Below, piece after piece: positions 10,299 through 34,779 of a stretch of DNA of 36,716 nt. Origin of the DNA: Candidatus Margulisiibacteriota bacterium (GTDB taxonomy: Bacteria > Margulisbacteria > Riflemargulisbacteria > GWF2-35-9); assembly GCA_028715625.1 (NCBI GenBank), contig JAQURL010000023.1, positions 1-36,716 on the forward strand. The letters run 5' to 3'. The position numbers were made by a program, and so were the translations under genes. The first letter of the stretch is position 1. Each line of letters begins with the position of its first letter. The notes beneath the pieces are model-generated. The model saw only the letters and a program-made list of their open reading frames with translations. It had not been told where the DNA came from and ran no database searches.

Positions 10299-10385
10299 GA
10301 AAGGTTCCCCTCAGACTTTATCTGATTAAATGATAGCCGGATAGATTTTTTTATTCAATGATTTCAGAAAATTTAAACTTTGAAA

Positions 10386-10733
10386 TCACTCTTCAATTTC
10401 CAAACTTAAAATTCGGAAATCCTTACCGGCGATGATAACAGAATCGGATATATTACATTTCTCACAAATATACCAGTTTTCTTTAAAATCCCAGGTGCTT
10501 TTACAACGATTGCATTGTACGACAGTTTTCTTGTGAATTATATTCAATTCAGCATCTTTTGCCACATCCGATTCCATAGTTACAGCCTCGAAACAAAGCT
10601 CCAGCGATTCGTCCACTATATCCAAATAATCTCCTACTTCTATATCCACGGACAATAATTTTTTATAATGCTTTTTTTTCATCTCTTCTTCGATTATGTT
10701 CCAGGCGGACATGATAACAGACATTTCGTGCAT
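10386..10733 (-). CDS. hypA: HypA, nickel chaperone for hydrogenase maturation
   Basis: HypA proteins start MHE, where the N-terminal amine and His2 bind nickel, so I place the start at 10733 even though the frame is open 26 codons further upstream into a repeat region. The resulting 115-residue protein has the zinc site Cys74-x2-Cys77 and Cys90-x2-Cys93, at the positions expected for the family. HypA delivers nickel to the large subunit with HypB, which is not in this window. There is no Shine-Dalgarno sequence. Instead a TATACT hexamer ends six bases before the ATG, so the transcript may be leaderless. It is the first gene of the hydrogenase operon. Confidence 0.93.
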   Translation of the reverse strand: MHEMSVIMSAWNIIEEEMKKKHYKKLLSVDIEVGDYLDIVDESLELCFEAVTMESDVAKDAELNIIHKKTVVQCNRCKSTWDFKENWYICEKCNISDSVIIAGKDFRILSLEIEE

Positions 10734-10739
10734 GAGGTA

Positions 10740-10745
10740 AGTATA
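10740..10745 (-). promoter_or_regulatory. Putative -10 element of the hypA-hydrogenase operon
   Basis: On the minus strand TATACT ends six bases before the hypA ATG, and TTTTCA (4 of 6 matches to the -35 consensus) lies about 17 bases upstream of it. Transcription from it would begin at or next to the start codon. That would explain the missing ribosome-binding site. The call is by pattern only. Confidence 0.35.
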
Positions 10746-10756
10746 TAGAAAAGGAT

Positions 10757-10842
10757 GAAAGGTGAAAAGCAAAAAGTGAATGGTCAAACGATAACACCTT
10801 TCACTACTCACTATTCACTATTCACGATTCACGATTCACGAT
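10757..10842. repeat. Inverted repeat plus 7-bp tandem repeats between hypA and exbB
   Basis: Arms GAAAGGTG (10757-10764) and CACCTTTC (10795-10802) could form a hairpin. They are followed by six tandem 7-mers, TCACTAC, TCACTAT twice and TCACGAT three times (10801-10842). This is non-coding spacer between two divergent operons. Similar TTACCACTTACC and CATCAACTCATCAACC runs occur in other gaps of the window (about 3105 and 5350), so simple AC/T-rich repeats appear to be a recurrent kind of spacer here. Confidence 0.7.
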
Positions 10843-10850
10843 TTATCATA

Positions 10851-10879
10851 TTGCAATTAAAATATTTACTGTTTATACT
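10851..10879 (+). promoter_or_regulatory. Sigma-70-type promoter of exbB
   Basis: TTGCAA (10851-10856) and TATACT (10874-10879) are separated by exactly 17 bases. The expected start, about 10886, lies only about five bases before the ATG at 10891, or about 17 before the ATG at 10903. There is no Shine-Dalgarno sequence at either. The exbB message is therefore leaderless or nearly so. Confidence 0.65.
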
Positions 10880-10890
10880 AATAATTAATC

Positions 10891-11550
10891 ATGTATCAAA
10901 ATATGACTATTTATCAATTTCTGCAGCAGGGTGGCATGGTTTTATGGTTGCTGACCTTTTGTTCCATCCTTTCAATATCGGTAATCATTGAACGTCTGTT
11001 CGTATTTGGCATAATTAAAAGAAAAATAAAAAAACTGAACAGGGATTTACTGCCTAAACTAAAAAAAAATAAGATTAATGACTCCATAGATATTTGTGAA
11101 AAAAATAAATCTCTTGTCGGAGACATGTTTGCCCAGGCCATTGATAAGAAAGGTCAAACTAAAGACAAACTTGAGGAGCTTGTGCATCGCAAAGGTATAG
11201 CTCTTACTTTGCAACTGGAAAATAAGCTAAGCATATTGGCAACCCTGGGTAATATTACACCATTTATCGGTCTGTTCGGTACTGTCCTGGGGATAATTAA
11301 AACATTCAGAGGATTATCTCTGGCGCAAACCTATGCCGCCGGAATGGTAGCCAGCGGTATTGCGGAGGCATTGCTAAACACCGCTGCCGGATTATTCGTC
11401 GCTATACCAGCGGTCATAGCCTTTAATTATTTTACCCGCCAAACTTATGGCATATTACGTGGGCTGGAAATAACCAGCTCTGAAGTGATCGAACTTTTAA
11501 CTGGAGGGAACGGGCCATCATCCACTTCCAACAAGACACCAAAAAATTAA
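10891..11550 (+). CDS. exbB: MotA/TolQ/ExbB-family proton channel protein
   Basis: The 219-residue protein has the ExbB topology: a first membrane helix at about 16-37, a basic cytoplasmic loop, and two further helices at about 117-140 and 150-180. The last pair carries the family signature LGNITPFIGLFGTVLGI and GIAEALLNTAAGLFVAIPAV. With ExbD it forms an inner-membrane proton-driven motor that energises TonB- or Tol-type transport. The initiator could also be the ATG at 10903 (MTIYQFL). The 3' end overlaps the apparent exbD frame, and the stop codon follows a run of six A residues. A TonB gene is not recognised downstream. Confidence 0.93.
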   Translation: MYQNMTIYQFLQQGGMVLWLLTFCSILSISVIIERLFVFGIIKRKIKKLNRDLLPKLKKNKINDSIDICEKNKSLVGDMFAQAIDKKGQTKDKLEELVHRKGIALTLQLENKLSILATLGNITPFIGLFGTVLGIIKTFRGLSLAQTYAAGMVASGIAEALLNTAAGLFVAIPAVIAFNYFTRQTYGILRGLEITSSEVIELLTGGNGPSSTSNKTPKN

Positions 11551-11939
11551 TATCTGAAATAAATATTATCCCTTTCACAGACATAGTTCTGGTCATTCTT
11601 GTCGTTTTTATTGTAGTCACACCTGTTCTGTTACAATCATCAATAAAAGTTAATCTTCCTTACATTGAAATGAAATCTCCTGTTTCCACCACAGATAAAA
11701 TCCGGATTTCTGTTCAGGAAAATAATCAACTGGCTGTGAATGACGAACCTGTCAAAGATTTTGAGGCTTTGGATACCCTGTTAAAACAATTACTAGCTGT
11801 AAAAAAGCCAGTACTTATCTATGCTGACAAAAGTATTAATTACGGACTTGTGATAAAAGTAATGGATATTGCTCAGAAAAATGGAGCAGAAAAACTGGAA
11901 CTCACGGCTAAAAATCAAAATGATGAAAAAGCTGATTAA
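11517..11939 (+). CDS. exbD: ExbD/TolR-family biopolymer transport protein with a non-standard start
   Basis: The frame encodes KKLISEINIIPFTDIVLVIL and a following membrane helix, the diagnostic ExbD N-terminus with the proton-carrying Asp (Asp22 in this numbering), then a periplasmic domain including VLIYADKSINYG. The frame is open upstream only to 11484 and has no ATG, GTG or TTG before the membrane helix; the first ATG (11670) would delete the helix and the Asp. GGAGG at 11503-11507 lies nine bases before ATC at 11517, so I give that as the nominal start of a 140-residue protein, a normal ExbD length. The alternative is a -1 frameshift from exbB at A AAA AAT (11541-11547), directly before the exbB stop. 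A sequence error in the A run is the third possibility. Confidence 0.8.
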   Translation: MIHFQQDTKKLISEINIIPFTDIVLVILVVFIVVTPVLLQSSIKVNLPYIEMKSPVSTTDKIRISVQENNQLAVNDEPVKDFEALDTLLKQLLAVKKPVLIYADKSINYGLVIKVMDIAQKNGAEKLELTAKNQNDEKAD

Positions 11940-12093
11940 ATTTAGCTTATCTGGGCAATTTATCAGAAGAAGCATAAATTTTTTATTTTCTTTTATTCTA
12001 ATTCTAACCGCGACCTCAGCAGACCTTGTCTCAAATTTCCTGACAGAGCAGATTACGCAGCAAAAAACCGGGACAATATTTGGAACTTCTTAA
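11920..12093 (+). CDS. Small membrane or secreted protein, 57 aa, in the TonB position
   Basis: This short frame starts with two ATG codons overlapping the end of exbD and encodes MMKKLIKF, a basic region, then a hydrophobic stretch FLFSFILILTATSA that could be a signal peptide cleaved after TSA or a membrane anchor. About 30 polar residues follow. In exb operons the third gene usually encodes TonB, which also has an N-terminal anchor, but this product is far too short and lacks the Pro-rich spacer and C-terminal domain. It may be an independent small protein or the remnant of a longer gene. The ribosome site is weak. Function unknown. Confidence 0.4.
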   Translation: MMKKLIKFSLSGQFIRRSINFLFSFILILTATSADLVSNFLTEQITQQKTGTIFGTS

Positions 12094-12150
12094 ACTGCGG
12101 GATTGTTTCAAATTTAGAGGGGGATAATTTATTAAAGGGAGGCTGTTTGT

Positions 12151-12912
12151 ATGAAAAAAAATATCAAAATTTTTATTAGTATTATCCTACTTGCGGTTTT
12201 ACTTCTGATCGGGTATCTTGTCGCCAATTTCATCACAGTAAATAATACCATCAAATCAATGAAAGCCATCCCCTCCGGAATGGTAGAAGATGACATATAT
12301 CTAATTAATAATCAGTTTGTCAGTTTTTACATAGTAAAAGGTACAACCGATAACTATATAGCAATAGACGCTGGTAACAATAATATTTTAAGCGCGGCAG
12401 CCATGAAAGAAAATAATCTGGATCCTAATAAAGTAATCGCAGTATTTCTTACTCATACCGACCCTGACCATACAGCCGGTATTTCTCTGTTTAAAAATGC
12501 ATCCGTGTATATTTCCAAACAGGAAGAAGATTTGATCAATGGCAAAAAGAATCGAAAATTTTTTAAAAAAAATTCACTCGGGCATTCGTATCTGTTACTT
12601 TCAGACAATCAGGTGTTGGATATCGACAGGATAAAGATAAAATGCATATTAACACCGGGTCATACACTTGGTTCGATGTGCTACCTGATTAATGATAATT
12701 ATCTGTTCGTGGGTGATACTTTAAGTTTGATAAATGGTAAAATAGGAGTATTTGATCCATTTTTTAATATGGATACAAAAACACTTAAAAAATCCATTAA
12801 AAAAATTGCGACAATACCGAATGTAAAAATAATTTTTACCGCACATTATGGCTTTACCGAGCAACAGTTAACCCCCAAAATAGCTAAGGGTATTGCTGGC
12901 TCGTTGAATTAA
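12151..12912 (+). CDS. Membrane-anchored metallo-beta-lactamase-fold hydrolase
   Basis: The 253-residue product has an N-terminal hydrophobic segment (about 6-27), a signal or anchor. The metal-binding residues of the fold are visible: HTDPDH (His102, Asp104, Asp106, His107), His171 in TPGHTLGS, Asp189 in VGDTLS and His232 in TAHYG. The usual HxHxDH motif has Asp104 in place of the second His, a variant known in some hydrolases of this superfamily. The domain probably hydrolyses an ester, thioester or lactone outside the cytoplasm, but the substrate cannot be told. AGGGAGG lies about eight bases before the ATG. It follows the exb genes after 57 bases and may be cotranscribed. Its end overlaps the convergent hypE by four bases. 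Confidence 0.82.
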   Translation: MKKNIKIFISIILLAVLLLIGYLVANFITVNNTIKSMKAIPSGMVEDDIYLINNQFVSFYIVKGTTDNYIAIDAGNNNILSAAAMKENNLDPNKVIAVFLTHTDPDHTAGISLFKNASVYISKQEEDLINGKKNRKFFKKNSLGHSYLLLSDNQVLDIDRIKIKCILTPGHTLGSMCYLINDNYLFVGDTLSLINGKIGVFDPFFNMDTKTLKKSIKKIATIPNVKIIFTAHYGFTEQQLTPKIAKGIAGSLN

Positions 12913-13922
12913 CAAATTCTTGGCAGTTGCGCCCCGGTGAGCATATGCACAATGCGATGCCCACCTGCATTTGTTTTCAGGGTAACTGTTCCTGGTGTCT
13001 CTTTGACGACTTCACCAATAACAGCCGCATGTTTACCTAAAGTATCTTTTTTCATGATATTCATAATTGCCTCAGTATCTTTTGTAGAAACAACCATAAC
13101 AACTTTTCCTTCGTTAGCCACATATAGCGGATCAAAACCCAAAAGCTCAGATATACCCTTTACTTGCTCTTTGACCGGGATATCCGGTTCGTATAGCTTA
13201 ATACCAAAGGTTCTTTTCTCTACACATTCACATAGTACCGAAGCCAGCCCTCCCCGAGTGGCGTCTCTCATAAATTTGATATCCGGGCAGACAACCAAAA
13301 TCTTTTGGATCAAATGGTTCAAGGACGCACAATCTGACTTTATTTTTGTATCAAATTGAAAACCATGGCGCTGCATCATGACCGCTAATCCGTGTTCAGC
13401 GATGCTTCCATTAATAATAATTTTATCGCCAACTTTAATATTTTTACCGATAGCTATTTTACTGCTATTTTTATGTAGTATGCCAATTCCTGTCGTATTA
13501 ATAAATAGTTTATCGCAACTTCCTTTTTCCACGACTTTGGTATCGCCTGTTACTATTTTTATCCCTGCATTTTTTGCTTCGGTTGCCATGGATTTAACAA
13601 TTATTTCCAAGTCCTTTAAAGGAAATCCCTCTTCGATAATAAAACCACAACTAATGTACAAGGGAGTAGCGCCAACCACAGCCAAATCATTAACTGTTCC
13701 GCATACTGCCAGCTTGCCTATATTACCTCCCGGGAAAAAAACAGGATTAACCACATAGCTGTCCGTTGTCATGGCCAATTCTTTTTCAGGAACTTTTAAT
13801 AAAGCTGAATCTGTAAGAATAGCTTGTTTGCCCGTGTTAAAATATTTCAGAAAAATATTTCTAATTAAATCTTGAGAAAGCAGCCCGCCGCTGCCATGGT
13901 CGAGCAGCACATAATTAATCAT
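12909..13922 (-). CDS. hypE: HypE, carbamoyl-dehydratase of the hydrogenase CN ligand pathway
   Basis: The 337-residue protein starts MINYVLLDHGSGG, the HypE N-terminus, has an AIR-synthase/PurM-type ATP-binding fold with the DATRGGLASVL and TNTTG-like segments, and ends in PRIC, whose terminal cysteine carries the thiocarbamate converted to thiocyanate. It supplies cyanide ligands for the Ni-Fe site with HypF and HypCD, none of which is here. The start at 13922 has AAGGA five bases upstream; 35 upstream in-frame codons overlap the preceding gene and are not expected to be translated. It overlaps the end of that gene by eight bases, so it is probably translated by coupling. It lies on the same strand as the hydrogenase operon but is separated by the plus-strand exb block. 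Confidence 0.95.
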   Translation of the reverse strand: MINYVLLDHGSGGLLSQDLIRNIFLKYFNTGKQAILTDSALLKVPEKELAMTTDSYVVNPVFFPGGNIGKLAVCGTVNDLAVVGATPLYISCGFIIEEGFPLKDLEIIVKSMATEAKNAGIKIVTGDTKVVEKGSCDKLFINTTGIGILHKNSSKIAIGKNIKVGDKIIINGSIAEHGLAVMMQRHGFQFDTKIKSDCASLNHLIQKILVVCPDIKFMRDATRGGLASVLCECVEKRTFGIKLYEPDIPVKEQVKGISELLGFDPLYVANEGKVVMVVSTKDTEAIMNIMKKDTLGKHAAVIGEVVKETPGTVTLKTNAGGHRIVHMLTGAQLPRIC

Positions 13923-14184
13923 TTTTATCCTTATCTTTATCCTGCGCTCTTTCCACAAGAATCGTACATTCAGTGAGCAGAGCTGCCACAGCCCCAACAG
14001 CTGCGAGGGCTGGAGCAAGCATCGCACCTACTACACCCACAGTTAAAGGTAAAGTGATGATTATGTGCCCTTCCCGATCTTTAATTGTAATCTTGCGGAT
14101 ATTACCCTCATGGATCAATTCTTTAATCTTCTTAAGCAGCATATCACCGTTAATTTTATATTCTTCTTTATTTTGTTCGCTCAT
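13915..14184 (-). CDS. DUF4342-like small membrane-associated protein
   Basis: The start at 14184 is set by GGAGG six bases upstream, giving 89 residues. The N-terminal half (DMLLKKIKELIHEGNIRKIT) is a short amphipathic helix followed by a beta region, KDREGHIIITLPL. Then comes a small-residue-rich hydrophobic stretch, VGVVGAMLAPALAAVGAVAA, a membrane helix or hairpin, and a charged KDKDKND tail. This pattern resembles the DUF4342 family, with moderate certainty. The family has no firm function. It overlaps hypE by eight bases and would be cotranscribed with it, which suggests but does not prove a link to hydrogenase assembly. Confidence 0.7.
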   Translation of the reverse strand: MSEQNKEEYKINGDMLLKKIKELIHEGNIRKITIKDREGHIIITLPLTVGVVGAMLAPALAAVGAVAALLTECTILVERAQDKDKDKND

Positions 14185-14310
14185 AAGCCACCTCCAGAAA
14201 TTGGTCATATTGTAACACAATTATTATCTTCAGCTAATCAGTTTAAAAACATGTTTCAGGCAACAAACCATACTTATTGCCGATATATTTATATACTCGT
14301 GAAAAATATT

Positions 14311-15171
14311 ATGAAATACAAAATCATCTCTTTTACAGGATCACCAAAACCACCTATAAAATATTTAGAAGATTTAGCAGATAAACATCCATTTCTAAAA
14401 CCTTGTGTAGCTTATATTATGAAAAATCCTTTAGAAATTATGAGACGCAACAAAGATTATCACCAATTCTATCCTCATAAAATTATGGAAAAACTGATTT
14501 TTTTGTACAACGAAATAAAACTTTTACATAGGGACCAGAATATAGACGCAGATGAACGAATTCAGAAAGAATTAATGATAATCGGGGATCTGCGAAACTT
14601 ATTTAAACAATATAACTTCTACCCGTATGAACATTCCTTTAGTGAAACAGCACCGGAGACCTGGGTTGCTTATTGTCATATTAATTGCGCTGTATTGAAC
14701 CTTTCGGTTCACATAGTTACTAAAAACGCTTTTCTGAACATAAAGGAAGCCAGAGAATTGTTATTGGAAATTGCCAAAGTGTTAATGTTCGATCGTCAAA
14801 CAAAAGCTCATTGCGTAAATCATAGTCTGGCGAGCGCTTTGTCTATTGTATATCCTCTTATGGACGATAATTTGAAAGAAAATTTCATGGCACGAATAAA
14901 TAAAATTATGTCAATTAATTCATTAACAGAACACGAAAGTGTAATTTTCCTGCTATATTCAATAATAAAATTTTACGGTTACAAGACTGTATCTGCCAAA
15001 CCGGATTCTTTATCTGAGGAAGAACAGGGATTATGTGATTCGCTTAAAAGAAAGTATGAATTAGACAAAGAAGCTGAAGGCGGTTCTTATCTGAATCCGG
15101 AAAGTTGTATGGGATTTTTACTAAACAATATTACTGATTTCCTGCGCATCGCTAAAAAAATATTCCAATAA
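14311..15171 (+). CDS. Unknown protein, 286 aa
   Basis: I do not recognise this protein. The likely start is MKYKIISFTG at 14311; the frame stays open far upstream, but that stretch overlaps the DUF4342-like gene on the other strand. No ribosome site precedes any candidate, and GTG at 14299 or ATG at 14251 are alternatives. The protein has no signal peptide or membrane segment and seems mainly helical, with a His/Cys-containing middle (VAYCHINCAVLNLSVHI; KAHCVNHSLASAL). It heads a same-strand series of four genes ending at 19056. Function unknown. Confidence 0.7.
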   Translation: MKYKIISFTGSPKPPIKYLEDLADKHPFLKPCVAYIMKNPLEIMRRNKDYHQFYPHKIMEKLIFLYNEIKLLHRDQNIDADERIQKELMIIGDLRNLFKQYNFYPYEHSFSETAPETWVAYCHINCAVLNLSVHIVTKNAFLNIKEARELLLEIAKVLMFDRQTKAHCVNHSLASALSIVYPLMDDNLKENFMARINKIMSINSLTEHESVIFLLYSIIKFYGYKTVSAKPDSLSEEEQGLCDSLKRKYELDKEAEGGSYLNPESCMGFLLNNITDFLRIAKKIFQ

Positions 15172-15231
15172 TTATTTTGAAATTTCTTTACTAGGCAATC
15201 GATATATAGATGTTATCAACAGGAGGTCATT

Positions 15232-16146
15232 ATGAAAACAAAAATAATCGCTGAAAAATCCAAACAATTATTCAATCAATTATTGGAGATGAGTAAAGGA
15301 TATAAATTCAATAAAAAACCGCAAGAACAGGCAGAATCGATAGGAACAGCTGTCAAATTGCTTAAGGCTAATAAATCTTTAAACCTTTATGATCTGGTTA
15401 AACAGCTCACAGATAAAGCGATTATAGAATATGACGTCAGGGGCTTTCTTGTAGATTTGATTGCTGCCCTATCAAACAAAAATCAATTTGAGGTTATAAA
15501 TATTATTATTAACGAAAAGGAAAAACTGATCCGTTATCCTTATCTGGACAGGCACACAATCAATAAGAATTATGAATATATCAAAAACATGTCTATTCTA
15601 AAATTTAATACCACCTCACTTAAATATCTGTTGAGCGCGGACATTTTTACCAGAGAATGCCTACACGAATGGTTCCTGAAGACTTACAGCGATTATTCAA
15701 TTCACAACAATCATTCCGGTCTGTTAGATACTTTTTTTACCAAAGCTATAAAAAGCGGAATTATGGATATAGCAACAATTTTTAATGAAGCTGTAAAAGA
15801 AACTGCCCCTGATTATCGAACCAAACAACTTATAGAAAATATTATTAATAACTATATTAAGGGTAAATACAAAGCAGAAGTTATTAATAACATATTTAAA
15901 CATAAAAATTCCAAATTAAACAGGACGATTGCCGAGACTTTGAAAAATTTAAAACCTTCGGACATACTTAGTATTCTGCATAGTATGGTTAACGCGCCCG
16001 AAATTAAACCTGAAATAAAAAAACAAATGGTCCTCTTTTTCTTCGAACCGAATATGGGAAAGCTCAGCCTGCCAACTTCTCACGGTAAACTGATAGTGCT
16101 AAAAGATAATGAAGAGGTTTTTGACAAACACGGCGGTTGTCCATAA
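15232..16146 (+). CDS. Unknown alpha-helical protein, 304 aa
   Basis: CAGGAGG lies six bases before the ATG, a strong ribosome site. The product has no signal peptide and no membrane helix, and its stretches of paired amphipathic helices resemble a HEAT- or ARM-like solenoid rather than an enzyme; no repeat unit is clear enough to claim. It ends HGGCP ten bases before the NDK-Maf fusion gene, so the two are probably cotranscribed. The solenoid idea is inference from composition; the function is unknown. Confidence 0.75.
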   Translation: MKTKIIAEKSKQLFNQLLEMSKGYKFNKKPQEQAESIGTAVKLLKANKSLNLYDLVKQLTDKAIIEYDVRGFLVDLIAALSNKNQFEVINIIINEKEKLIRYPYLDRHTINKNYEYIKNMSILKFNTTSLKYLLSADIFTRECLHEWFLKTYSDYSIHNNHSGLLDTFFTKAIKSGIMDIATIFNEAVKETAPDYRTKQLIENIINNYIKGKYKAEVINNIFKHKNSKLNRTIAETLKNLKPSDILSILHSMVNAPEIKPEIKKQMVLFFFEPNMGKLSLPTSHGKLIVLKDNEEVFDKHGGCP

Positions 16147-16155
16147 ACTAAAAAA

Positions 16156-18021
16156 ATGCAAAAATTTAAGATCATCGCTTATAATACTAACGTGGCTGGT
16201 CTGAAGAATATCGCTTTTGTTTTTATAAAACCTCATGCTGCCGCGAACAACGCTGCGCAGGAATTTATTGAACAGTCCCTTGCTAAAAAAGGTATTAATA
16301 TCCTGAGCTCCGATACCATCTCGGGAAAAGAGATCAGACAGAAAAATATCATTGACCGGCATTATTCGGAGATATCTAAAAAATCCGCTGTAAAACCTGC
16401 TGATCTGGAAATATCGTCGGAAGTAAAAACAAAATTTGCTGATATCTTTCAAGCAAACTGGGATAAAGCCATTACTCAAAAGCAAATGATTAACGGGTTT
16501 GAATTCATGAAACTGCTTAATATTGACGCGAAACAGCTTAATGAGCTCTGGGAAAAAGCGGAACGTCATAAAATTGGAAGCGGCTTGTATGCTATTGAAT
16601 ATTTACACCGGGGACAAAAACTTTATGTGCTTAATGGTTTTTACCCGGCCATGCAGGCAAAATATACAAACGAAGACAGTCAGGTTAGATATTATATAGT
16701 CAGCTTTCCGCAAACCGGCTGGCAGGAGTTTCGTAAGCTCATCGGGAGCACCGACCCTCAAAAAGCTGACCTTAACTCTATCAGAGGATATTTTCAGCAG
16801 CATCAGGATGATTACGGTCTTATGGTTACCAACCAGGACAATGTGGTACATGCCAGCGCATCTGCTCTGGAAGCCATGCAGGAACTTATGATCTGGCAAA
16901 ACATTCAACCGCAGGAACATCCGCTGGGCAATGCTTTGCTGGAAAACGGGTTAACTCAGGAAGACCTGGAATACTTTCAAACTAATCCGGTCATATCATA
17001 TAAAGGAGAAAAAACCAATTTATGGAATATTCTTGAGGACAGGAACACAACTGATGCTCTGGATATTATATTGGAAGCATATAGCTATTATATGACCGAT
17101 AAGATCGAAGCGGAACCCGCTGTTTACACCAAAAAATTTCTGGGCTTTACAGAAAAATTGCAGACGGAAATTGTTGGCCTGCTCTTTGAAAAATTCGGCA
17201 ATCAATCTGTAGCTGCACTGTTTAAAGAAATTGCCCTTATACATGTGCAAAATCCTCTGATTAACGAAGAAGTTCTGCTTGCGTCCAAATCTCCAAGACG
17301 GCAATATCTGCTGGAACAAATGGGTGTAAAATTTATTTCTCTGGAATCTTCTTCCAGCGAACATAAACCCGCGGTTTGCACAAATTTTAATAATATTACC
17401 AAAACCGTTGCCGCGATGAAATTGCTCCCCTTTTTAAAAAACAAAGATTTAAAACAGCAAATAATCTTAACATCTGACACTCTTTTATACCTGCATGATA
17501 AATCTGTTGTAGGTAAAGCCGAAGGAAAAACCAAAGCAGAGCAGTTAAAAGCAGCTGAAAAAATTTTATATTCGCTGATGGGCAAAGAACACAGGGTATG
17601 TTCAAGCGTAGTAGTCTTTGACGCCTCAAAAATGGCAATGTACATCAGTTCTGTTCAAACCAGAATTATTTATAAAAAATTAGATTCCTCCACCGATGAG
17701 TTGTTAAAAAAATATATCAGTCTGGCACTGGATGATGAGCTTAAAAACCGCGGACCGCTGGGCAAGGCAGGAGCATATGGCTTGCAGGAACCTGAGATTC
17801 TTCAGCTTATGGAAAAAGTTATCGGAGATCCCTTCACTGTTATTGGCCTGCCTGTCAGAAAAACCGAAACAATGTTAAAAAAATGCGGAATAAAGCTCAA
17901 GGAAATAAAACCTGCTGATCTTTATCAGTCTATCTGGGGTATTTGGGATAAGCAAAAATACTATACGTTGAATGACCGCCAGGTAAATCTGCTGGATTTG
18001 GCCTTCAAAATTATTGAATAA
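16156..18021 (+). CDS. Fusion of NDK-like and Maf-like nucleotide enzymes
   Basis: Residues 18-250 follow nucleoside diphosphate kinase: FVFIKPHAA (Lys25), then after an insertion of about 100 residues GSTDPQKADLNSIRGYF and NVVHASAS, whose His232 aligns with the phosphorylated catalytic His. A linker of about 120 residues leads to a Maf domain at 372-580: LLASKSPRRQYLLEQMG, TSDTLL (Asp441, the Maf catalytic Asp), VVGKA, GKAGAYGLQ and VIGLPV. NDK equalises nucleoside triphosphate pools; Maf proteins hydrolyse modified or surplus NTPs to monophosphates. Such a fusion would make and discard triphosphates in one chain. The start has no ribosome site, only TAAACT six bases upstream. Domain assignments are from motifs; the NDK half is divergent and might be inactive. 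Confidence 0.85.
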   Translation: MQKFKIIAYNTNVAGLKNIAFVFIKPHAAANNAAQEFIEQSLAKKGINILSSDTISGKEIRQKNIIDRHYSEISKKSAVKPADLEISSEVKTKFADIFQANWDKAITQKQMINGFEFMKLLNIDAKQLNELWEKAERHKIGSGLYAIEYLHRGQKLYVLNGFYPAMQAKYTNEDSQVRYYIVSFPQTGWQEFRKLIGSTDPQKADLNSIRGYFQQHQDDYGLMVTNQDNVVHASASALEAMQELMIWQNIQPQEHPLGNALLENGLTQEDLEYFQTNPVISYKGEKTNLWNILEDRNTTDALDIILEAYSYYMTDKIEAEPAVYTKKFLGFTEKLQTEIVGLLFEKFGNQSVAALFKEIALIHVQNPLINEEVLLASKSPRRQYLLEQMGVKFISLESSSSEHKPAVCTNFNNITKTVAAMKLLPFLKNKDLKQQIILTSDTLLYLHDKSVVGKAEGKTKAEQLKAAEKILYSLMGKEHRVCSSVVVFDASKMAMYISSVQTRIIYKKLDSSTDELLKKYISLALDDELKNRGPLGKAGAYGLQEPEILQLMEKVIGDPFTVIGLPVRKTETMLKKCGIKLKEIKPADLYQSIWGIWDKQKYYTLNDRQVNLLDLAFKIIE

Positions 18022-18048
18022 AAAACGTTTTTTTCACGATAAATTTAT

Positions 18049-19056
18049 ATGCCCGCAAAAATTATTTCTTTAAATAATTCTATTAAACCGATTAACTCTG
18101 CAGAACTGGGTATTTCCACTGAAGACCTGCCTAACCTTGATAAACCGATTAAGCTGACGGCTGGCAAAATGCTGGGGCAGAGGAAAATCAATTTACTCAA
18201 AAAAGATTATCCTGATTTATACAATATTTTGTTTGATGTGGAAAACGCAACCAAACTGTTGAAGATCGCTTCTCAATTAAGAATGAAATTTGATTTTGAC
18301 AAATACAGACCACAGGGCTGGCAAGACCCGCTGGAATACGCCGTTGCAAACAGTTTATACCTGCATCTGGGTGCTGATATTTATATTACTCCGGTAACCG
18401 AGTCCTATCGCCGCCACACTTTATTTGTAATGAACGCTGCCAAACAAATCAGCTTTGCGCTGGAAATAAAAATCCCCGGCGAACTGGACGACCGAAGAAA
18501 TATTTCTCACAAAAATTTTGAAATCGCTGAAAAAATAACGGGTGACCCTGCTACTCAGATAGTCAAACCTTTATTTTTTGAAGCTCTGCCAAAAGGACAA
18601 TATAGTCTGTACAAACAAACATTTAATTATAACTGGAACGAACCGCTGGGAATTATGGGCTACGAATATGTTCAGGGCAGACGACTGTATAATCTGGGAG
18701 AAGTCGGCCTGAAGAGCTTGTTCCTCAGCATTGCCAGCAGTTATAAAAATATAAAAAAATTTTATGACGATCTGGCTGAACAGGCAGTAAAAATTATCCA
18801 AAATATCCATCAGGCCGGTTTTATCTGTCAGAATAACGAAGGCACGGACCTGCATACGGAAAACTTTAAAATATTTATAGAAAATGGAAAAGCCAGGCTT
18901 TTCTTTGTTTCAGATACAGGAGCCTTTCATGAACCGCCGCTATTCAGCCCTGAGACTTATTTCGGTCTGGATGTAAGGAATTTTGCGCTGTCTCTGCAGG
19001 TGTTAATACCTGACCTGGATATTAAAAAATTTGAAGAAAAATATAAAAAGACGTAA
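18049..19056 (+). CDS. Divergent protein-kinase-fold protein, 335 aa
   Basis: Several kinase-fold landmarks appear in order: ALEIKIPGE (a candidate ATP-binding Lys, as in VAIK), an acidic helix NFEIAEKI, a hinge-like IMGYEYVQGR, then IIQNIHQAGF leading to TDLHTENF, which resembles the catalytic loop HxDxxxxN of small-molecule and lipid kinases, and LFFVSDTGAF at the DFG position. The catalytic loop keeps Asp and Asn. No signal peptide or membrane helix is visible. It may phosphorylate a small molecule or protein, or be a pseudokinase. It follows the NDK-Maf gene after 27 bases and lacks a ribosome site; GATAAATT lies just before the ATG. A hairpin 122 bases downstream may end the transcript. 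Confidence 0.6.
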   Translation: MPAKIISLNNSIKPINSAELGISTEDLPNLDKPIKLTAGKMLGQRKINLLKKDYPDLYNILFDVENATKLLKIASQLRMKFDFDKYRPQGWQDPLEYAVANSLYLHLGADIYITPVTESYRRHTLFVMNAAKQISFALEIKIPGELDDRRNISHKNFEIAEKITGDPATQIVKPLFFEALPKGQYSLYKQTFNYNWNEPLGIMGYEYVQGRRLYNLGEVGLKSLFLSIASSYKNIKKFYDDLAEQAVKIIQNIHQAGFICQNNEGTDLHTENFKIFIENGKARLFFVSDTGAFHEPPLFSPETYFGLDVRNFALSLQVLIPDLDIKKFEEKYKKT

Positions 19057-19177
19057 TAAATCCTACCAGCCTTTTTAAATGTTTAGAAATTTTGAAACCG
19101 GGCATATATATAAATGAAACAAAGATAGTATAGGTGTATTTGGGGGTATGGGTTGGTCCGCTTGTCGGAAATCCGCT

Positions 19178-19200
19178 AAATGCCAGTGATTCTGGCGTTT
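19178..19200 (+). terminator. Possible terminator hairpin
   Basis: AAATGCCAG and CTGGCGTTT pair over nine positions (one T-G wobble) around a five-base loop, TGATT, and end in TTTT. It lies between the kinase-fold gene and the PorV-like gene, on the plus strand. The short T run makes it a weak terminator; it could also be a leader structure of the downstream gene. The rest of the 191-bp gap holds no recognisable feature. Confidence 0.45.
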
Positions 19201-19247
19201 TCCCAAAAAAATTAAACACCATACGCATTAAGAAACGGACTTTTTAT

Positions 19248-20135
19248 ATGCGTTTTGGGCTCAAATTACTGACAGTAATTTTCTTTACTGCATTTAGTTA
19301 CGGTGAGATCATCGGCGGTTATGCAAGTGATTATCTGGACTATGGAGTTGGGGCCAGAGCCGCTGCCATGGGTAAAGCTGCCCGGACTATAATGAGCGAT
19401 GCCACAGCCGGCTACTGGAACAGCGCCAGCCTGGCTAAAGTGAAGCAAAGCAGTATAACCTATATGAACATCTCTTTGCTTGATGATGTAAGCTACATAC
19501 ACGCAGGTATGGCATTTCCTTTAGGCAAATCACAAACAATCGCTATCAATTACATCGGCCTTAATGTTGCAGGCATTGAAATGCATAATGGCAATCAACC
19601 TTCAGCTACAGCCGATAAAATATTCAGTGCCGGAGCCGGATCGATAATGATGAGCTATGGCTGGGAGATCAATAAATCTTTCAGTGTAGGTTGTACAGGT
19701 AAGTACGGTTTTCGCAATATAGACCAGAGTAATGACAGCGTGCTCAGTTGTGATCTTGGTTTTCTTATGAATATCAACACTATTAAAGTAGGCGGTAATA
19801 TAAGAAATCTGCTTTCCATAGTTGGCGGAGATACTTCCAATCAATATGAATTAGACCTGGATTTGGGAATAAGCGGTAAAATAACCGACAAACTGCTCCT
19901 GACCATCGACAGTGCCCGCTTGCTCAGAGGTACAGCCTACTATGCGGGACTGGAGTATTTATTTATTGAAAGTAATTCCTTAAACTGCTCACTGCGCGGA
20001 GGTATAAATTCATCAGAAATAAGCGCAGGTTTTGGGCTGCAAGTTTATTGTGTTTCTTTTGATTATGCCTGTATCATTAATAATATTGGTACGCAACATC
20101 AAGTAGCGTTCAGTTATGATCTGGGGGCTTTTTAA
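19248..20135 (+). CDS. PorV-like outer-membrane protein
   Basis: The likely start is MRFGLKLLTVIFFTAFSYG at 19248, a classic signal peptide; the frame extends 38 codons further upstream through a non-coding gap that contains a hairpin. The mature protein (about 275 residues) begins with SDYLDYGVGARAAAMGKA and continues with ATAGYWNSASLA, features of the PorV/PorQ (UPF0164) beta-barrel family. These are outer-membrane proteins; PorV guides cargo of the type IX secretion system to the surface. The following gene, which starts on its stop codon (TAATG), encodes a protein with a type IX-like C-terminal domain, so the pair may be secretion partner and cargo. Other type IX components are not in the window. 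Confidence 0.8.
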   Translation: MRFGLKLLTVIFFTAFSYGEIIGGYASDYLDYGVGARAAAMGKAARTIMSDATAGYWNSASLAKVKQSSITYMNISLLDDVSYIHAGMAFPLGKSQTIAINYIGLNVAGIEMHNGNQPSATADKIFSAGAGSIMMSYGWEINKSFSVGCTGKYGFRNIDQSNDSVLSCDLGFLMNINTIKVGGNIRNLLSIVGGDTSNQYELDLDLGISGKITDKLLLTIDSARLLRGTAYYAGLEYLFIESNSLNCSLRGGINSSEISAGFGLQVYCVSFDYACIINNIGTQHQVAFSYDLGAF

Positions 20136-22075
20136 TGAAGAAAAAACAGCTTATGCTTATACTACTATGCGGGTTTATCTTTGGCGGGCAAGCGCAGAAT
20201 TTTAAATCCACAAATATTTCCGGACTGAACAGTTATAAAGGGGGTTCCAATACTTTCCAGGCCCAAACCAGATTTTCCGAAACCTTGTCAGACGTAAAGC
20301 AGGATAATAATTATTTGAACCTGGACCTGGCCAATGAAATACTTTTTAAATCAAAACATAACGAATTCCCTTCTGTAATAAATATAACAGTATCACCGTC
20401 GTACCTGATACTGGGGCAGGACCTGATCATGGATATTGAGCTCAGCGAAGCATTGCAGGACTGGGCATCGCTTGTTAAAGACTTAAATCCTGTAAAAAGC
20501 TGGGCAAGAAACAATCATATTTATGTCCAGTGCCGACCTCTGGACATCTTTGACGGCACAACCAACCTGCTTTTAACGCTTCTCGATTACGGGCAAAACC
20601 AGAAAATTTATTATTCGTCATTAAATATTATTGTGGATGACGGACTTAACCCCGTACCCTATGAACTTTTAGAAACCGGCATAGCAGATGAGGTACATAC
20701 GGGCAGTCAAATTAACCAGGGTGTTGTATTCAATATGCAGGCCAGGCATAATGAATATGTTTTAAAAAATATAAAATTTTCCATAAATCCTGAATTTGAT
20801 TTTACCCAGATTAATAATATCGCACTTTATACTGTGTCCGGCAACAATAACGAACTGCTGGGAAAGATTGAAATTCCGCAGGGATACGAATTCACTCTCA
20901 ATGTAAAAAGCCAACAAATCATAGACCTTGTTCCAAAAAAATATATGCTCGGCTTTGATCTGGCCGACAGCACGGTTTCAGGTTCGTTAAAATTAACCAT
21001 AACCTCCATTTTAACCCGAAAGCTTACTGGTAATATGTCTGAACATATCACCACTGCAAATATGTCCGGTAAAGAGTTGTCTGTAGTGCCAAAAAGCAAA
21101 CCTATAATTACAGAATCGGAAGTTTATCCGTTTGTAGGGAAATCTCAGCAAATCGAGCCTGATGTGGTTTATCTGGACCCCTTGAAACAACAGTTAAAAT
21201 TTCGTTATTCAGTAGTCAACGCGGATAGCGGCAAAACCGTGAGAGACTGGGAAGAAATAAACGTTAAGTCTCAGGCTTTATCCGAAACAAACGGACAGCA
21301 GAAATTGTATAGCCTGCCCACAAAATTACCGCTGGAGCATAATCAGCATTATCAGCTCATCTATGAACTGGTCGGTGTATCCACCAGCAAACGAATAAGC
21401 AGTAATATCTTTTTGGCGGACCTCACTCCACCCTTAAAGCCTTCATCTGTTTTGTTGCAGCCAATTGTAAATCAAAATTTGCAGCAGGTAGATAATAATC
21501 TGACACTGGATTTTATGTTCAACGCATCTTCAGCGCTGGACCCGGAAAGCGGACTCGCCAGCTACAGGATAATGATGAAATCCTCAAAAAATCCCTACTG
21601 GAAAAATATCTATGAAGATAATGTTATTACAGCAGAGGTGCAGACAGTTCCACTGTCCTTACCCAAAGATGATTCTTATACCTTTAAAGTAGCGCTGAAA
21701 AATAAAGCAGGTGACTGGGGAGATTTCAGCGAAGAATACTCCTTCAATAATACTCAGGCTGACGAACTGGTAAAAGTGCTTTTCAACGCTCCCAATCCTT
21801 TTGACAGCCGCAAGGAAAATACAACCATCTATTATACCCTTGGCAGTCAGGCTAGCGTGGAAATTGATATTTACAGCCTGTTCGGCTACTTCATAAAAAA
21901 ATGGAATTTCACGGCCACTGAACTGGGGACAGCCGGAGATCATATTCTGGTCTGGGACGGAACCAATGTTAACGGAATGAAGGTGGCCAAGGGGGTTTAT
22001 ATTTTGATACTTAAAGCTACGGATAGCGCAGGCAAAACGCAAACCAAAAAATATAAGTTAGCGGTAGTCAGTTAA
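20135..22075 (+). CDS. Large secreted protein with FlgD/T9SS-like C-terminal domain
   Basis: The 646-residue product begins with a signal peptide, MKKKQLMLILLCGFIFGGQA. Most of the length is beta-rich, with Ig- or fibronectin-like segments, for example around the DLTPPLKPSS and LDPESGLASYRIMMK regions (about 430-530). The last 100 residues contain NAPNPFDSRKENTTIYY, VEIDIYSLFGY, ILVWDGTNVNG and KGVYILILKATD, which is the FlgD-like Ig fold used as a type A sorting domain in type IX-secreted proteins. The start codon overlaps the PorV-like stop codon by one base, so translation is coupled. Its precise role is unknown; a surface scaffold or adhesin is plausible. Confidence 0.78.
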   Translation: MKKKQLMLILLCGFIFGGQAQNFKSTNISGLNSYKGGSNTFQAQTRFSETLSDVKQDNNYLNLDLANEILFKSKHNEFPSVINITVSPSYLILGQDLIMDIELSEALQDWASLVKDLNPVKSWARNNHIYVQCRPLDIFDGTTNLLLTLLDYGQNQKIYYSSLNIIVDDGLNPVPYELLETGIADEVHTGSQINQGVVFNMQARHNEYVLKNIKFSINPEFDFTQINNIALYTVSGNNNELLGKIEIPQGYEFTLNVKSQQIIDLVPKKYMLGFDLADSTVSGSLKLTITSILTRKLTGNMSEHITTANMSGKELSVVPKSKPIITESEVYPFVGKSQQIEPDVVYLDPLKQQLKFRYSVVNADSGKTVRDWEEINVKSQALSETNGQQKLYSLPTKLPLEHNQHYQLIYELVGVSTSKRISSNIFLADLTPPLKPSSVLLQPIVNQNLQQVDNNLTLDFMFNASSALDPESGLASYRIMMKSSKNPYWKNIYEDNVITAEVQTVPLSLPKDDSYTFKVALKNKAGDWGDFSEEYSFNNTQADELVKVLFNAPNPFDSRKENTTIYYTLGSQASVEIDIYSLFGYFIKKWNFTATELGTAGDHILVWDGTNVNGMKVAKGVYILILKATDSAGKTQTKKYKLAVVS

Positions 22076-22083
22076 AGGAAATT

Positions 22084-23592
22084 ATGAACACTATTTTACA
22101 TAAAACTGCTTCTCATTCATTGGAAAATTGTTATTATTCTATTATGAAACGAATAATACTGCTTTTAACCTTTTCTCTGGCGTTTTCGCAGTCTATTATG
22201 GAAAGCGGCATTCTCAAGGATAACAGCGGACATCCGGTGACCGTCAATGTTTCCATGCAGTATAAAATTTACCGCAGCCCGGAATTAACAAAACCCTTAT
22301 GGACTTCCGCTCTTCTGACTGTTAAACCTGATGAAGGAGTTTATTCCATCGTTCTTGGTGACAGCACAAACCCGCTGGATGAAAATATTTTTTCAGGGCC
22401 CGGAGATTATTATCTGGAACAAAGTATTAACGGTGAAACATTAAAACCCTTAAAACAAATATTTTATAATCCGCAGTCCATATTTGCGCTCAAGTCTAAC
22501 ACCGCTGATGTGTCGCTGAAGGCTCAGAACTCTGAGTTCAGTGCTCTGGCCAATACAGCAAATATCGCATTGTCAGCTTTAAGTGCTCAGATATCCAATA
22601 CAGCCGACTTTGCTCTGCTGGCGCAATCTGTTTCCTGGATAAATATCACAGACAGGCCGGACATAGTTACAAAAGGAATGCTGGCTCAGGTACAAAGTAC
22701 GGCTAATTACGCACTAAGAGCTCAGAGCTCGGAGCTTAGCGCTCTGGCTGGAACTGCTAATATAGCAATAACCGCAAATACTGCTCTATGGGCTCAGAGC
22801 TCAGGGTTCAGCGCTTTGTCCGGAACTTCTGACTATGCTTTACTCAGTAAAGAAACCGAACTGGCCAGAAAAGTGTACTGGAACAATGTCTATGATAAGC
22901 CTAACAGCCTGGTCTATAAAGACGATACAGAATATATTGCCCCAAAAGCTGCAGTCTCTTCCTCCTCTTACAAAGCTGATTTTGCTTTAACAGCCAATAA
23001 ACTCGTCAGCATGAAAATTTCTCAATTTTCCAATGATAGCGCTTATCTGGCCCAGGAAAGCGACCCGCTGGTAAAATCCTACGCCAAAACAAAGGATGAA
23101 AACCAACTCAGCGTGAGTACAGCTAATTACGCGCTTAGGACTCAGAGTTCGGAGCTTAGTACTCTGGCTAATATGGCTCAAAACGCAAATTATGCAATAA
23201 CCGCGAGCGCTCTGACCAGCATGAAAATTTCTCAATTTTCCAATGACAGCGGATTTATAACCAGCCAGGCGCTTAATAATTTGCAAACCCGGTCCTCAAC
23301 AATGAATATAAGTCCAGGCACCGCCGCAAACATTTTTCTAAATATGAATGACCAAGTCATTCTGGCAAATACAGCAAACGGCCCTGTAAGTATCTTTCTC
23401 CCGGCTGCCGCAAATTTTACCGGCAAATTTTATACAATTAAAAAAATTGATTCAGGCAAAAACAAAGTAACAATCAGAACAAATGGTCTGGATAAAATTG
23501 ACACAGACGACCTGTATTTCCTGTCCATTCAAAATGAATATGTAAATTTGATTAGCGATGGAGACGGGTGGCATATAATCGGAAACAATTGA
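22084..23592 (+). CDS. Secreted repeat protein with tail-fibre-like modules
   Basis: AAAGGA lies four bases before the ATG at 22084, so I keep that start although the signal peptide proper begins 20 codons later (MKRIILLLTFSLAFSQ). Residues 40-130 form a globular domain (YKIYRSPE, GVYSIVLGD). The middle is made of low-complexity modules with TANYALRAQSSELSALA-type repeats and two MKISQFSNDS units. The last 80 residues (ILANTANGP, YTIKKIDSGKNKV, NEYVNLISDGDGWHIIGNN) form a domain shared with the next gene. Such ISQF/W-TNDSGYLT modules and the YTIKK end domain are common in phage tail fibres and in bacterial surface proteins. With a signal peptide and the PorV-like gene upstream, a surface appendage is the better reading. 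Confidence 0.72.
   Translation: MNTILHKTASHSLENCYYSIMKRIILLLTFSLAFSQSIMESGILKDNSGHPVTVNVSMQYKIYRSPELTKPLWTSALLTVKPDEGVYSIVLGDSTNPLDENIFSGPGDYYLEQSINGETLKPLKQIFYNPQSIFALKSNTADVSLKAQNSEFSALANTANIALSALSAQISNTADFALLAQSVSWINITDRPDIVTKGMLAQVQSTANYALRAQSSELSALAGTANIAITANTALWAQSSGFSALSGTSDYALLSKETELARKVYWNNVYDKPNSLVYKDDTEYIAPKAAVSSSSYKADFALTANKLVSMKISQFSNDSAYLAQESDPLVKSYAKTKDENQLSVSTANYALRTQSSELSTLANMAQNANYAITASALTSMKISQFSNDSGFITSQALNNLQTRSSTMNISPGTAANIFLNMNDQVILANTANGPVSIFLPAAANFTGKFYTIKKIDSGKNKVTIRTNGLDKIDTDDLYFLSIQNEYVNLISDGDGWHIIGNN
22990..23108 (+). repeat. 119-bp coding module, copy 1 (diverged)
   Basis: This segment encodes TANKLVSMKISQFSNDSAYL followed by AQESDPLVKSYAKTKDENQL. It matches, without a gap, the modules at 23946-24064 and 24222-24340 in the next gene, all exactly 119 bases long. 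A shorter fourth version (SMKISQFSNDSGF) begins near 23219. Confidence 0.75.
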
Positions 23593-23669
23593 AATTATTT
23601 AAATAACAGGAGGTGGTTTTTTAAAAATTAGTTTATAATTTTGTTTCGAAATATTGGAAAGGGGTTCAC

Positions 23670-25106
23670 ATGAAAAATATCTTTAAATACAAATTAATAA
23701 TTATCACCCTGATAGCCTGCTCCCAGCTTTTTGCCCTCACCAGCAAAAGACCTGACGGGTCTTTACAAATGTATGTAGATACACCATTGGAAGGTCTGGT
23801 TATTTCCATTAACGGTTATATCGGGTTGGGCACTCTGTCACCACAGTCCAGACTGGATGTAATAGGTGACATAAAAGCATCCGGCAAAATTACTGCTGCT
23901 TCTCTTGTAGGTGACGGAGCTCTGCTGACCAATGTTTTCGCTGCCACAGCCAATAAACTTGCCAGCATGGCTATTTCTCAGTTTACTAATGACAGCGGCT
24001 ATCTTACAACAGAATCCGATCCATCGGTCCAATCCTATGCTAAAACCAAAGCTGAGAATCAACTTTCAGTTGGCACAGCGAACGTCGCGCTCACTGCTCA
24101 GAGCTCAGGAATCAGTGTTTTGGCCAATTCAGCACTGACAGCAAATTATTCTGCAAACTCCGCATTACTGGGTAATAAAACTGAAGCGGCCCTTAATGTT
24201 AATAGTGCCTTAACTGCGACTACAGCCAATAAACTTGCCAGCATGGCTATTTCCCAATTTACCAATGACAGCAGCTATCTTATAGCCGAATCTGACCCAT
24301 CTGTCCAATCCTATGCCAAAACCAAGGCTGAAAACCAGCTAAATGTTGCCACAGCCCTGACAGCTGTTACAGCTAATTATGCCGGCAATACAGCACTTCT
24401 TGGCGGCAAAACTGAGGCAGCTCTAAATGTCGCAACTGCAGTAACTGCTACTACCGCCAATTACGCAATCGCTGCAGGTTCAGCCATTAACGCGCAGAAT
24501 GCTAATAATGCCTCATTATTAGGCGGCAAAACTGAAACTGCTCTGAACGTTAACAGTGCTCTGACATCAGCAACCGCAAATTATGCTTCTAACTCGGGTT
24601 TATTGAGTAATAAAACTGAATCAGCTTTAAACGTTAATAGCTCACTAACATCAACTACAGCCAACAAAGCTCTGGCCATGGATTCCTCAGGACTTACTGG
24701 TGCCGTAAATGTAAGTTCCACTGCACCTGCAGGCTCATTGGTGCTTACTTCTGCGGGAGCAACCGGTATAAAAACAGCAAACCCCAATAGCACTCTTGAT
24801 GTTAACGGATCACTGTCTGTAGCTTTAAGCATCAAAACTTCCAGCTATACTCTCACCGGATCAGACAGCATAGTGCTGGCTAATGCCGGCAACGGGCAAA
24901 TAACCATGACCCTGCCGACCGCAGCAGGTATAGACGGCAGATACTACACGATTAAGAAGATAGATACCGGCAAAAACAAAGTTGTCATTGCTACCAGCGC
25001 AGGACAATTGATAGACAAGGACAGCACCTATGTTTTAACCATGCAATATGAATATGTAACTCTGGTTAGTGATGGAAGCAACTGGGTGATCATAGGAAAT
25101 AATTAA
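23670..25106 (+). CDS. Secreted repeat protein, paralogue of the preceding gene
   Basis: A signal peptide (about residues 1-22, ending LFA) is followed by SKRPDGSLQMYVD and GYIGLGTLSPQSRLDVIGDI, the start of a head-like domain that is also present in the next gene. The body consists of two copies of a 40-residue ISQFTNDSGYL...KTKAENQL module and at least four units of the LLGGKTEAALNVNSALT type separated by TANYA segments. This short-period pattern suggests a beta-helical or trimeric stalk. The C-terminal domain (YTIKKIDTGKNKV, YEYVTLVSDGSNWVIIGNN) matches that of the previous protein. A GGAAAGGGG ribosome site is present. A surface fibre or adhesin is the likely role; the binding partner is unknown. 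Confidence 0.75.
   Translation: MKNIFKYKLIIITLIACSQLFALTSKRPDGSLQMYVDTPLEGLVISINGYIGLGTLSPQSRLDVIGDIKASGKITAASLVGDGALLTNVFAATANKLASMAISQFTNDSGYLTTESDPSVQSYAKTKAENQLSVGTANVALTAQSSGISVLANSALTANYSANSALLGNKTEAALNVNSALTATTANKLASMAISQFTNDSSYLIAESDPSVQSYAKTKAENQLNVATALTAVTANYAGNTALLGGKTEAALNVATAVTATTANYAIAAGSAINAQNANNASLLGGKTETALNVNSALTSATANYASNSGLLSNKTESALNVNSSLTSTTANKALAMDSSGLTGAVNVSSTAPAGSLVLTSAGATGIKTANPNSTLDVNGSLSVALSIKTSSYTLTGSDSIVLANAGNGQITMTLPTAAGIDGRYYTIKKIDTGKNKVVIATSAGQLIDKDSTYVLTMQYEYVTLVSDGSNWVIIGNN
23946..24064 (+). repeat. 119-bp coding module, copy 2
   Basis: It encodes the TANKLASMAISQFTNDSGYL and TTESDPSVQSYAKTKAENQL halves. Copy 3 lies 276 bases further on and differs mostly at synonymous positions. 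Confidence 0.8.
24222..24340 (+). repeat. 119-bp coding module, copy 3
   Basis: It is closely similar to copy 2 and has the same length. The differences are mainly third-position changes such as TCTCAGTTT against TCCCAATTT, so the protein unit is conserved while the DNA has drifted. Confidence 0.8.
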
Positions 25107-25107
25107 G

Positions 25108-34628: not shown

Positions 34629-34779
34629 AATATCCCCCCGGATAAACCATATAATTTATAAAAACTCTGATTTTGCCCAATTATTTCCCTCTGCTAATTT
34701 ATCGTAAAAATTTTTTATAAATCCCACTAATTAAAGTCAAATCCACTGCAATTTATGGCAAAAAAACCGATAAATTATT

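Follow-up and report, generated by a model that had tools for sequence, protein, structure and literature searches.

A shared N-terminal tag and promoter link a fused NDK-like and Maf protein of a Margulisbacterium to a putative second type III export apparatus

Introduction

Many unrelated type III effectors of Salmonella SPI-2 have in common the N-terminal motif WEK(I/M)xxFF, and in the trypanosome glycosome glycolytic enzymes, adenylate kinase and phosphoenolpyruvate (PEP) enzymes are relocated by a short peptide (PTS1 or PTS2). Promoters of the sigma28 (FliA) family follow the consensus TAAA-N15-GCCGATAA. Here we analyse a 36,716-nucleotide stretch of DNA from a Margulisbacterium (contig JAQURL010000023.1; hereafter the window), in which a protein that we call P0001 joins a nucleoside diphosphate kinase (NDK)-like domain to a Maf pyrophosphatase domain, behind an N-terminal peptide that recurs on unrelated proteins. 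On balance, we favour the view that P0001 belongs to a regulon of tagged, sigma-controlled substrates of a second type III export apparatus, their export being predicted.

Some precedent comes from Chlamydia, in which housekeeping carbohydrate enzymes carry N-terminal export signals. Passages of PMC4829429 report type III signals on glycogen enzymes, with five of six chimeras secreted in a heterologous assay, and a part of PMC9251005 describes the gain of a type III signal by phosphoglucomutase; the exported set named in these parts of the two papers includes glycogen synthase, branching enzyme, MalQ and phosphoglucomutase. The set described here differs in its strict short motif, its far wider range (glycolysis, cofactor enzymes) and its separate divergent copies, and its export is predicted. 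SPI-2 effectors likewise have one N-terminal motif on unrelated proteins, although the motif is another one and the leader is longer. The glycosome is a eukaryotic organelle, whereas any counterpart here is hypothetical. The source organism lies within the Margulisbacteria, where its relatives include GWF2_35_9, a Candidatus Termititenax sp. and RA.bin73; one Margulisbacterium is described, in a passage of PMC6784892, as an intracellular symbiont of Trichoplax. In the open-licence literature we found no description of such a tag, nor of a second type III apparatus, in Margulisbacteria.

Results

P0001 shares an N-terminal tag with unrelated proteins

P0001 is encoded by one uninterrupted frame of 621 codons, and its first residues form a segment of low predicted local distance difference test (pLDDT) score.

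16156-18021, + strand: P0001, 621 aa; tag 1-11, NDK-like domain ~18-310, helical segment ~306-372, Maf domain 373-576, C-terminal tail.
16156-16188, + strand: N-terminal tag of P0001, MQKFKIIAYNT; predicted disordered, with pLDDT < 50 at residues 1-11.

This disordered tag, common to P0001 and its neighbours, had been missed in an earlier note on the DNA. P0001 opens with MQKFKIIA and follows a pattern, M-x(2-3)-K-[ILV]-I-[SA], that is also found in its unrelated neighbours, which start with MKYKIIS, MKTKIIA and MPAKIIS; two more window genes begin with MFYKVIS and MQTKLIS. With K-[ILV]-I-[SAT] required at residue 4 or 5, 6 of the 30 open reading frames (ORFs) in the window were positive against 0.02 expected (binomial, 1e-13), the expectation being the frequency of the motif inside the same proteins and the motif having been picked after it was seen. 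Across the source genome (G000), the loose form of the pattern gave 149 matches against 27 in the reversed control, and the strict form 71 against 1. Matches and controls for the strict form were 16/0 in GWF2_35_9 (G002), 20/1 in G006, 10/1 in a Candidatus Termititenax genome (G005), 10/1 in G004, 4/2 in G003, 10/6 in G007, 3/6 in G001, 14/1 in G041 and 12/2 in G034, with at most 10 matches in each remaining genome of the 95. Several of the tags in G041 (L263-L268) open long unknown ORFs.

Fetched loci yielded 88 candidate tagged ORFs, of which 84 were kept and four dropped because the tag lay at least 100 codons into the frame. These 84 fell into 62 BLAST clusters: one of 22 members, which includes the ankyrin proteins, one pair and 60 singletons. 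Codons at the tag match general usage, with all three isoleucine codons and both TCN and AGY serines; this free choice indicates selection on the peptide rather than on the DNA. A DNA or translation element was thus rejected, ordinary Shine-Dalgarno sequences also lying upstream. For most members, inspection by eye led us to reject a Sec signal as well; chance cases exist (FlgI-like L145, L119 and L196 2442). The tagged GAPDH aligns with solved GAPDHs only from residue 7-12 onward, so that its tag appears as an added leader.

Tagged genes share a sigma28-like promoter

The hexamer ACGATA occurred in 32 of 100 upstream regions of tagged genes and in 10 of 276 others (Fisher, 1e-12). A two-block model, TG[CA]AA[TC]-N14-[TA][AC]CGATA[AT][AT], placed mostly 5-45 nt before the start, reached at least 12 bits in 61/101 tagged regions, 28/278 others and 2/101 shuffles. 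The matrix was trained on the tagged genes themselves; free of this bias are the k-mer test and the comparison of held-out halves, in which 28/51 and 26/50 tagged regions were positive versus 29/278 and 31/278 others, with the seed taken from whole-set k-mers. Many of the non-tagged genes with a site have variant tags (KLVS, KIVA, KIVS, KILA). Among relatives, the promoter preceded tagged genes in 6/12 cases in G002, 5/7 in G006, 4/6 in G005 and 4/5 in G004. A tag-poor sample of 138 kb contained 13 sites, three of them no more than 150 nt from the start of an ORF, and none of its 102 ORFs was tagged; this sample is not random, because it consists mostly of contigs or parts of contigs without listed tag matches.

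At a threshold of 15 bits the window holds eight sites, six of them preceding genes with a tag (displaced in one case) and two inside genes. P0001 has no promoter of its own, being the second gene of an operon, 9 nt behind the gene that starts at 15232, and is served by the operon promoter at 15177-15206. The earlier note had suggested that the flanking genes may form one pathway with P0001; they do belong together, and what joins them is tag and promoter rather than a demonstrated pathway.

Behind a second FlhA gene lies a sigma gene under the same promoter

Two FlhA-type gates are present in each of G000-G007, which form one class, and one in each of G008-G011; G002 and G006 have three FlhA matches each, the third being fragments. 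Similarly, FlhB occurs as two larger copies and a short one in G000-G007 (in G004, one partial) and as one copy and a short one in G008-G011. In G000, the first FlhA gene adjoins a gene read by eye as FlhF. Behind the second (FlhA2) come two small ORFs and then a FliA-like sigma gene, and the second FlhB locus contains, by eye, FliP, FliR and a FlgB/FlgC-like rod protein.

The promoter of the tagged genes lies directly behind FlhA2, scoring 18.9 bits in G000, 19.5 in G001, 22.3 in G002, 15.1 in G003 and 16.9 in G005; it stands between FlhA2 and the genes ORF120-ORF101-sigma in five of the six loci examined, and not in G007. Thus the genome combines a CGATA-type -10 box, a spaced -35 box and a FliA-like sigma gene, as a sigma28-type regulon would, and the shared promoter resembles the sigma28 consensus. 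Unlike the flagellar arrangement of FlhA/FlhB and sigma28, the copy here is a second one, its loci are separate, the upstream box is TGmAA, and tagged genes are driven. The two small ORFs between FlhA2 and the sigma gene (L230 10267-10962 and relatives) are conserved, encode ~120 and ~101 aa and had no NCBIfam match; ORF101 carries FSRKELSGWGD. A chaperone or anti-sigma function is possible for them.

Tagged proteins include ankyrin-repeat proteins and metabolic enzymes

Pfam models were scanned against 81 tagged proteins. L124, L125 2-685 and L145 had been left out as likely chance matches, L124 being perhaps genuine after all as it has a promoter, and MreB-like L099 was kept though probably a chance case. 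Ankyrin repeats occurred in 15 of the 81, and leucine-rich repeat (LRR) proteins are also among the tagged set. Enzymes of sugar metabolism were found as single tagged proteins: PFK (its nearest solved relative is a pyrophosphate-dependent PFK), PGK, TIM fused to class II aldolase, FBPase_2, phosphoglucomutase and a PEP-utilising protein. The same was true of cofactor and nucleotide enzymes, namely adenylate kinase, a PPAT-like domain fused to CoaE, NAD kinase and NAPRTase, the last adjoined by an isochorismatase-type hydrolase, and of SET, PLD, GT9, MutS_V, radical SAM, HD and PAS-histidine kinase domains. A second batch from G000 added GAPDH, a PfkB kinase, 4-alpha-glucanotransferase, two histidine phosphatases and an inositol phosphatase; G002 contributed glycogen synthase, branching enzyme, a RelA/SpoT domain and a hybrid histidine kinase, and G006 a serine dehydratase. 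No enolase, pyruvate kinase or glucose-phosphate isomerase was seen among the tagged proteins scanned.

G000 also has an untagged PGK, an adjacent untagged GAPDH (by eye) and a canonical NDK encoded elsewhere in the genome. In a PGK tree with long branches throughout, which left out the second PGK of G002, the second PGKs of G000 and G007 were sisters (100/99) and that of G004 grouped with untagged copies of G037 and G050. The second PGKs are not one lineage. Divergent extra untagged PGKs with long branches also occur in other classes (G037, G048, G050, G051 and G060; L182-L187), perhaps as a parallel system with another signal.

P0001 joins an NDK-like and a Maf domain in a single chain

The presence of both domains in one protein, as the earlier note had read from the letters, is confirmed. 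Pfam placed Maf at 373-576 (E 2.2e-30, 106.1 bits) and NDK at 190-247 (E 2e-10, 41.1 bits), both above the curated cut-off of 27. The NCBIfam Maf subfamily model TIGR00172 scored 66.3 bits, below its cut-off of 117, so the domain is a divergent one and P0001 no standard Maf protein. An AlphaFold model (mean pLDDT 86.6; predicted template modelling score 0.81) had pLDDT below 50 at residues 1-11 and at nearly all of 601-621. With this model, Foldseek retrieved Maf of B. subtilis (4heb, E 2.3e-10) and, as expected from the NDK fold proposed for the N-terminal half, the NDK 3mpd (E 1.6e-5), with target TM-scores mostly of 0.7-0.8.

P0001 was aligned with three NDK-like relatives, one extended Maf, ten Maf proteins and nine canonical NDKs from other genomes. 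As in NDK (PF00334), K25, Y70, F162, R193, T199, R210, N229, H232 and E243 are kept, and we take these positions to have their usual catalytic or nucleotide-binding roles, with H232, which aligns with the canonical NDK histidine as had been proposed, presumably the phospho-acceptor. The domain departs from NDK in a large insertion, put earlier at about 100 residues and here at ~80 (Y70 to F162), in ~10 more residues near the Kpn loop, in a C-terminal part of ~60 residues that belongs to the NDK-like family, and in the replacement of the HGSD Asp by Ala235. The Maf half matches PF02545 in fold and in SKSPRR (377-382), D441, GK, KAGAYGLQ and GD, the first two having been picked out in the earlier note; it differs in that the DKAG Asp is Gly536, in being fused to NDK, and in its helical N-terminal segment (residues ~306-372) and C-terminal tail, both of which are also found in a stand-alone Maf protein of GWF2_35_9 (L052). 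Both active sites look complete, which makes nucleotide-pool chemistry plausible.

The fusion itself proved rare. Both halves share a frame in G000 only, out of the 95 genomes searched, and in G002 they are separate genes on different contigs (NDK-like L002; Maf L052 5673-6746), which weakens the fusion as the key to function. Full-length matches to the NDK-like half were found by profile search in 4 of 74 genomes of the phylum (G000, G002, G005 and G062); other matches were short and nearly all canonical NDKs, the exception being a 759-aa tagged protein of the Termititenax genome (L081 52-2331, - strand) in which a degenerate NDK-like stretch lacks the histidine. Tag and promoter are retained by the stand-alone NDK-like relatives of G002 and G005. 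A single-protein search of genome contigs with P0001 returned no relative, as did a search of viral contigs with the NDK-like profile. Conservation of the neighbourhood, which the earlier note had proposed to look for, was rejected: stretches around the relatives of either half held no convincing homologue of the genes at 14311, 15232 and 18049.

Other features of the window

The remaining tagged genes and promoter sites of the window are as follows.

814-843, + strand: shared promoter CTGCAAC-N14-TTCGATAAT, 21.5 bits; before 851.
851-1744, + strand: tagged protein MFYKVISSV..., 297 aa.
14258-14287, + strand: shared promoter AGGCAAC-N14-GCCGATATA, 15.7 bits; before the tagged start 14311.
14311-15171, + strand: tagged protein MKYKIISFT..., 286 aa; start probably ATG 14311, not GTG 14065.
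15177-15206, + strand: shared promoter TTGAAAT-N14-ATCGATATA of the operon 15232-18021, 20.2 bits; 25 nt before ATG 15232.
15232-16146, + strand: tagged protein MKTKIIAEK..., 304 aa; first operon gene, no Pfam match.
18014-18043, + strand: shared promoter TTGAATA-N14-CACGATAAA, 16.3 bits; before 18049.
18049-19056, + strand: tagged protein MPAKIISLN..., 335 aa; no Pfam match, kinase-like motifs by eye.
31497-34628, - strand: tagged protein MQTKLISVK..., 1043 aa, GTG start; C-terminal GNAT acetyltransferase domain.
34698-34727, - strand: shared promoter of the 31497-34628 gene, 18.4 bits.
34780-35577, + strand: 265-aa protein with tag-like KNKLIA at residues 11-16, deeper than usual; promoter 34746-34774, 17.9 bits.

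Elsewhere in the window, positions 5355-14027 (- strand) hold what is by eye a hydrogenase-type cluster, with two hydrogenase subunits, a maturation protease, an HdrA-like flavoprotein and HypA- and HypE-like proteins. Positions 19134-25818 (+ strand) encode a PorV/PorQ-family protein (NCBIfam, 7.2e-21), repetitive secreted-looking proteins and a protein with a FlgD_ig/PorU-like C-terminal domain, traces of a type IX-like system.

Discussion

A type III substrate regulon best joins these observations, because a dedicated sigma gene shares its locus with an export gate and a peptide tag marks unrelated proteins. The first ~10 residues of P0001 would be a targeting tag, most likely the entry signal that the second flagellar-type type III export apparatus reads. 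The FliA-like sigma factor encoded behind FlhA2 would read the sigma28-like promoter and so control a regulon of perhaps ~100-150 unrelated tagged proteins. Exported cargo would comprise ankyrin proteins and others resembling those of eukaryotes, along with a second complement of enzymes for sugars, cofactors and nucleotides, and its destination would lie outside the bacterial cytoplasm, probably in a host cell or host vacuole. If both of its predicted enzyme activities hold, P0001 may charge and clean the nucleotide pool there. More tentatively, and somewhat short of an even call, the tagged enzymes may amount to a near-complete second central metabolism, leading from glycogen or glucose phosphate towards pyruvate with NAD, CoA and nucleotide enzymes, that is built from divergent paralogues under one ten-residue tag and one sigma factor and runs in the host cell, a vacuole or an organelle of its own.

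Several observations weigh against this export reading. FlhA2 scored 792 bits with the NCBIfam FlhA model (cut-off 772) and 662 bits with the SctV model (cut-off 692); it is thus filed as flagellar FlhA rather than as the SctV-type gate of a non-flagellar injectisome, and the apparatus could be another flagellum. In G001 the second export genes are present, as is the sigma and promoter circuit, yet tags are not in excess (loose, 31 versus 31 in the control; strict, 3 versus 6), and G041, of another class, has 14 strict tags versus 1 with the promoter at 0 of 3 tagged ORFs tested. Histidine kinases, the RelA/SpoT domain and radical-SAM proteins would be odd exports, composition downstream of the tag differs weakly from the rest of the sequences, and the sole Maf match in G000 sits on a tagged protein.

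The tag may instead direct proteins to an internal, glycosome-like compartment with a second glycolysis and its own NAD, CoA and nucleotide enzymes, the NTP pool of which P0001 would keep. The tagged set does cover the greater part of a pathway (PFK, aldolase-TIM, GAPDH, PGK, phosphoglucomutase, PEP-utilising protein, 4-alpha-glucanotransferase and FBPase), to which adenylate kinase, PPAT-CoaE, NAD kinase and NAPRTase and, in G002, the glycogen enzymes are added; untagged PGK, GAPDH and NDK are also present, and the tagged set extends to regulators such as histidine kinases. Nevertheless, we consider such a compartment rather unlikely, given that the ankyrin, LRR, SET and PLD proteins look host-directed and that promoter and sigma gene link the tagged set to an export gate.

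A second flagellum, with the tagged proteins co-regulated and retained, for example as proteins of the cell body in a motile or attached stage, would agree with the model scores of FlhA2, with the rod protein in the partner operon and with sigma28-type control, which is typical of late flagellar genes; as this would leave the peptide tag unexplained, we regard it as improbable. We give equally little credence to P0001 as an ordinary cytoplasmic nucleotide-editing fusion whose tag marks co-regulation and has no address function. Its seemingly intact active sites and its being the only Maf found in the genome fit that proposal, but a peptide found across ~60 unrelated groups and free in its codon use calls for a reader at the protein level, and the separate NDK-like relatives keep tag and promoter. 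Of the functions suggested in the earlier note, nucleotide pool editing stays plausible from the two seemingly intact domains, with the fusion itself no longer central, and no result pointed to production of a signalling nucleotide. Finally, an assembly or frameshift artefact, which the occurrence of the fusion in one genome and the separate halves in G002 might suggest, is very improbable in view of the single open frame of 624 codons, the tag at the fused N terminus only and the confident joint AlphaFold model.

If the regulon of exported, tagged proteins is real, a large repertoire of proteins in a phylum next to the Cyanobacteria would be addressed by a code that is simple and readable, and the substrates could therefore be listed from sequence alone. 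Whole pathways, and not only single enzymes as in Chlamydia, would have been relocated through a short N-terminal tag on paralogues. This would offer a handle on how uncultured Margulisbacteria live with other cells.
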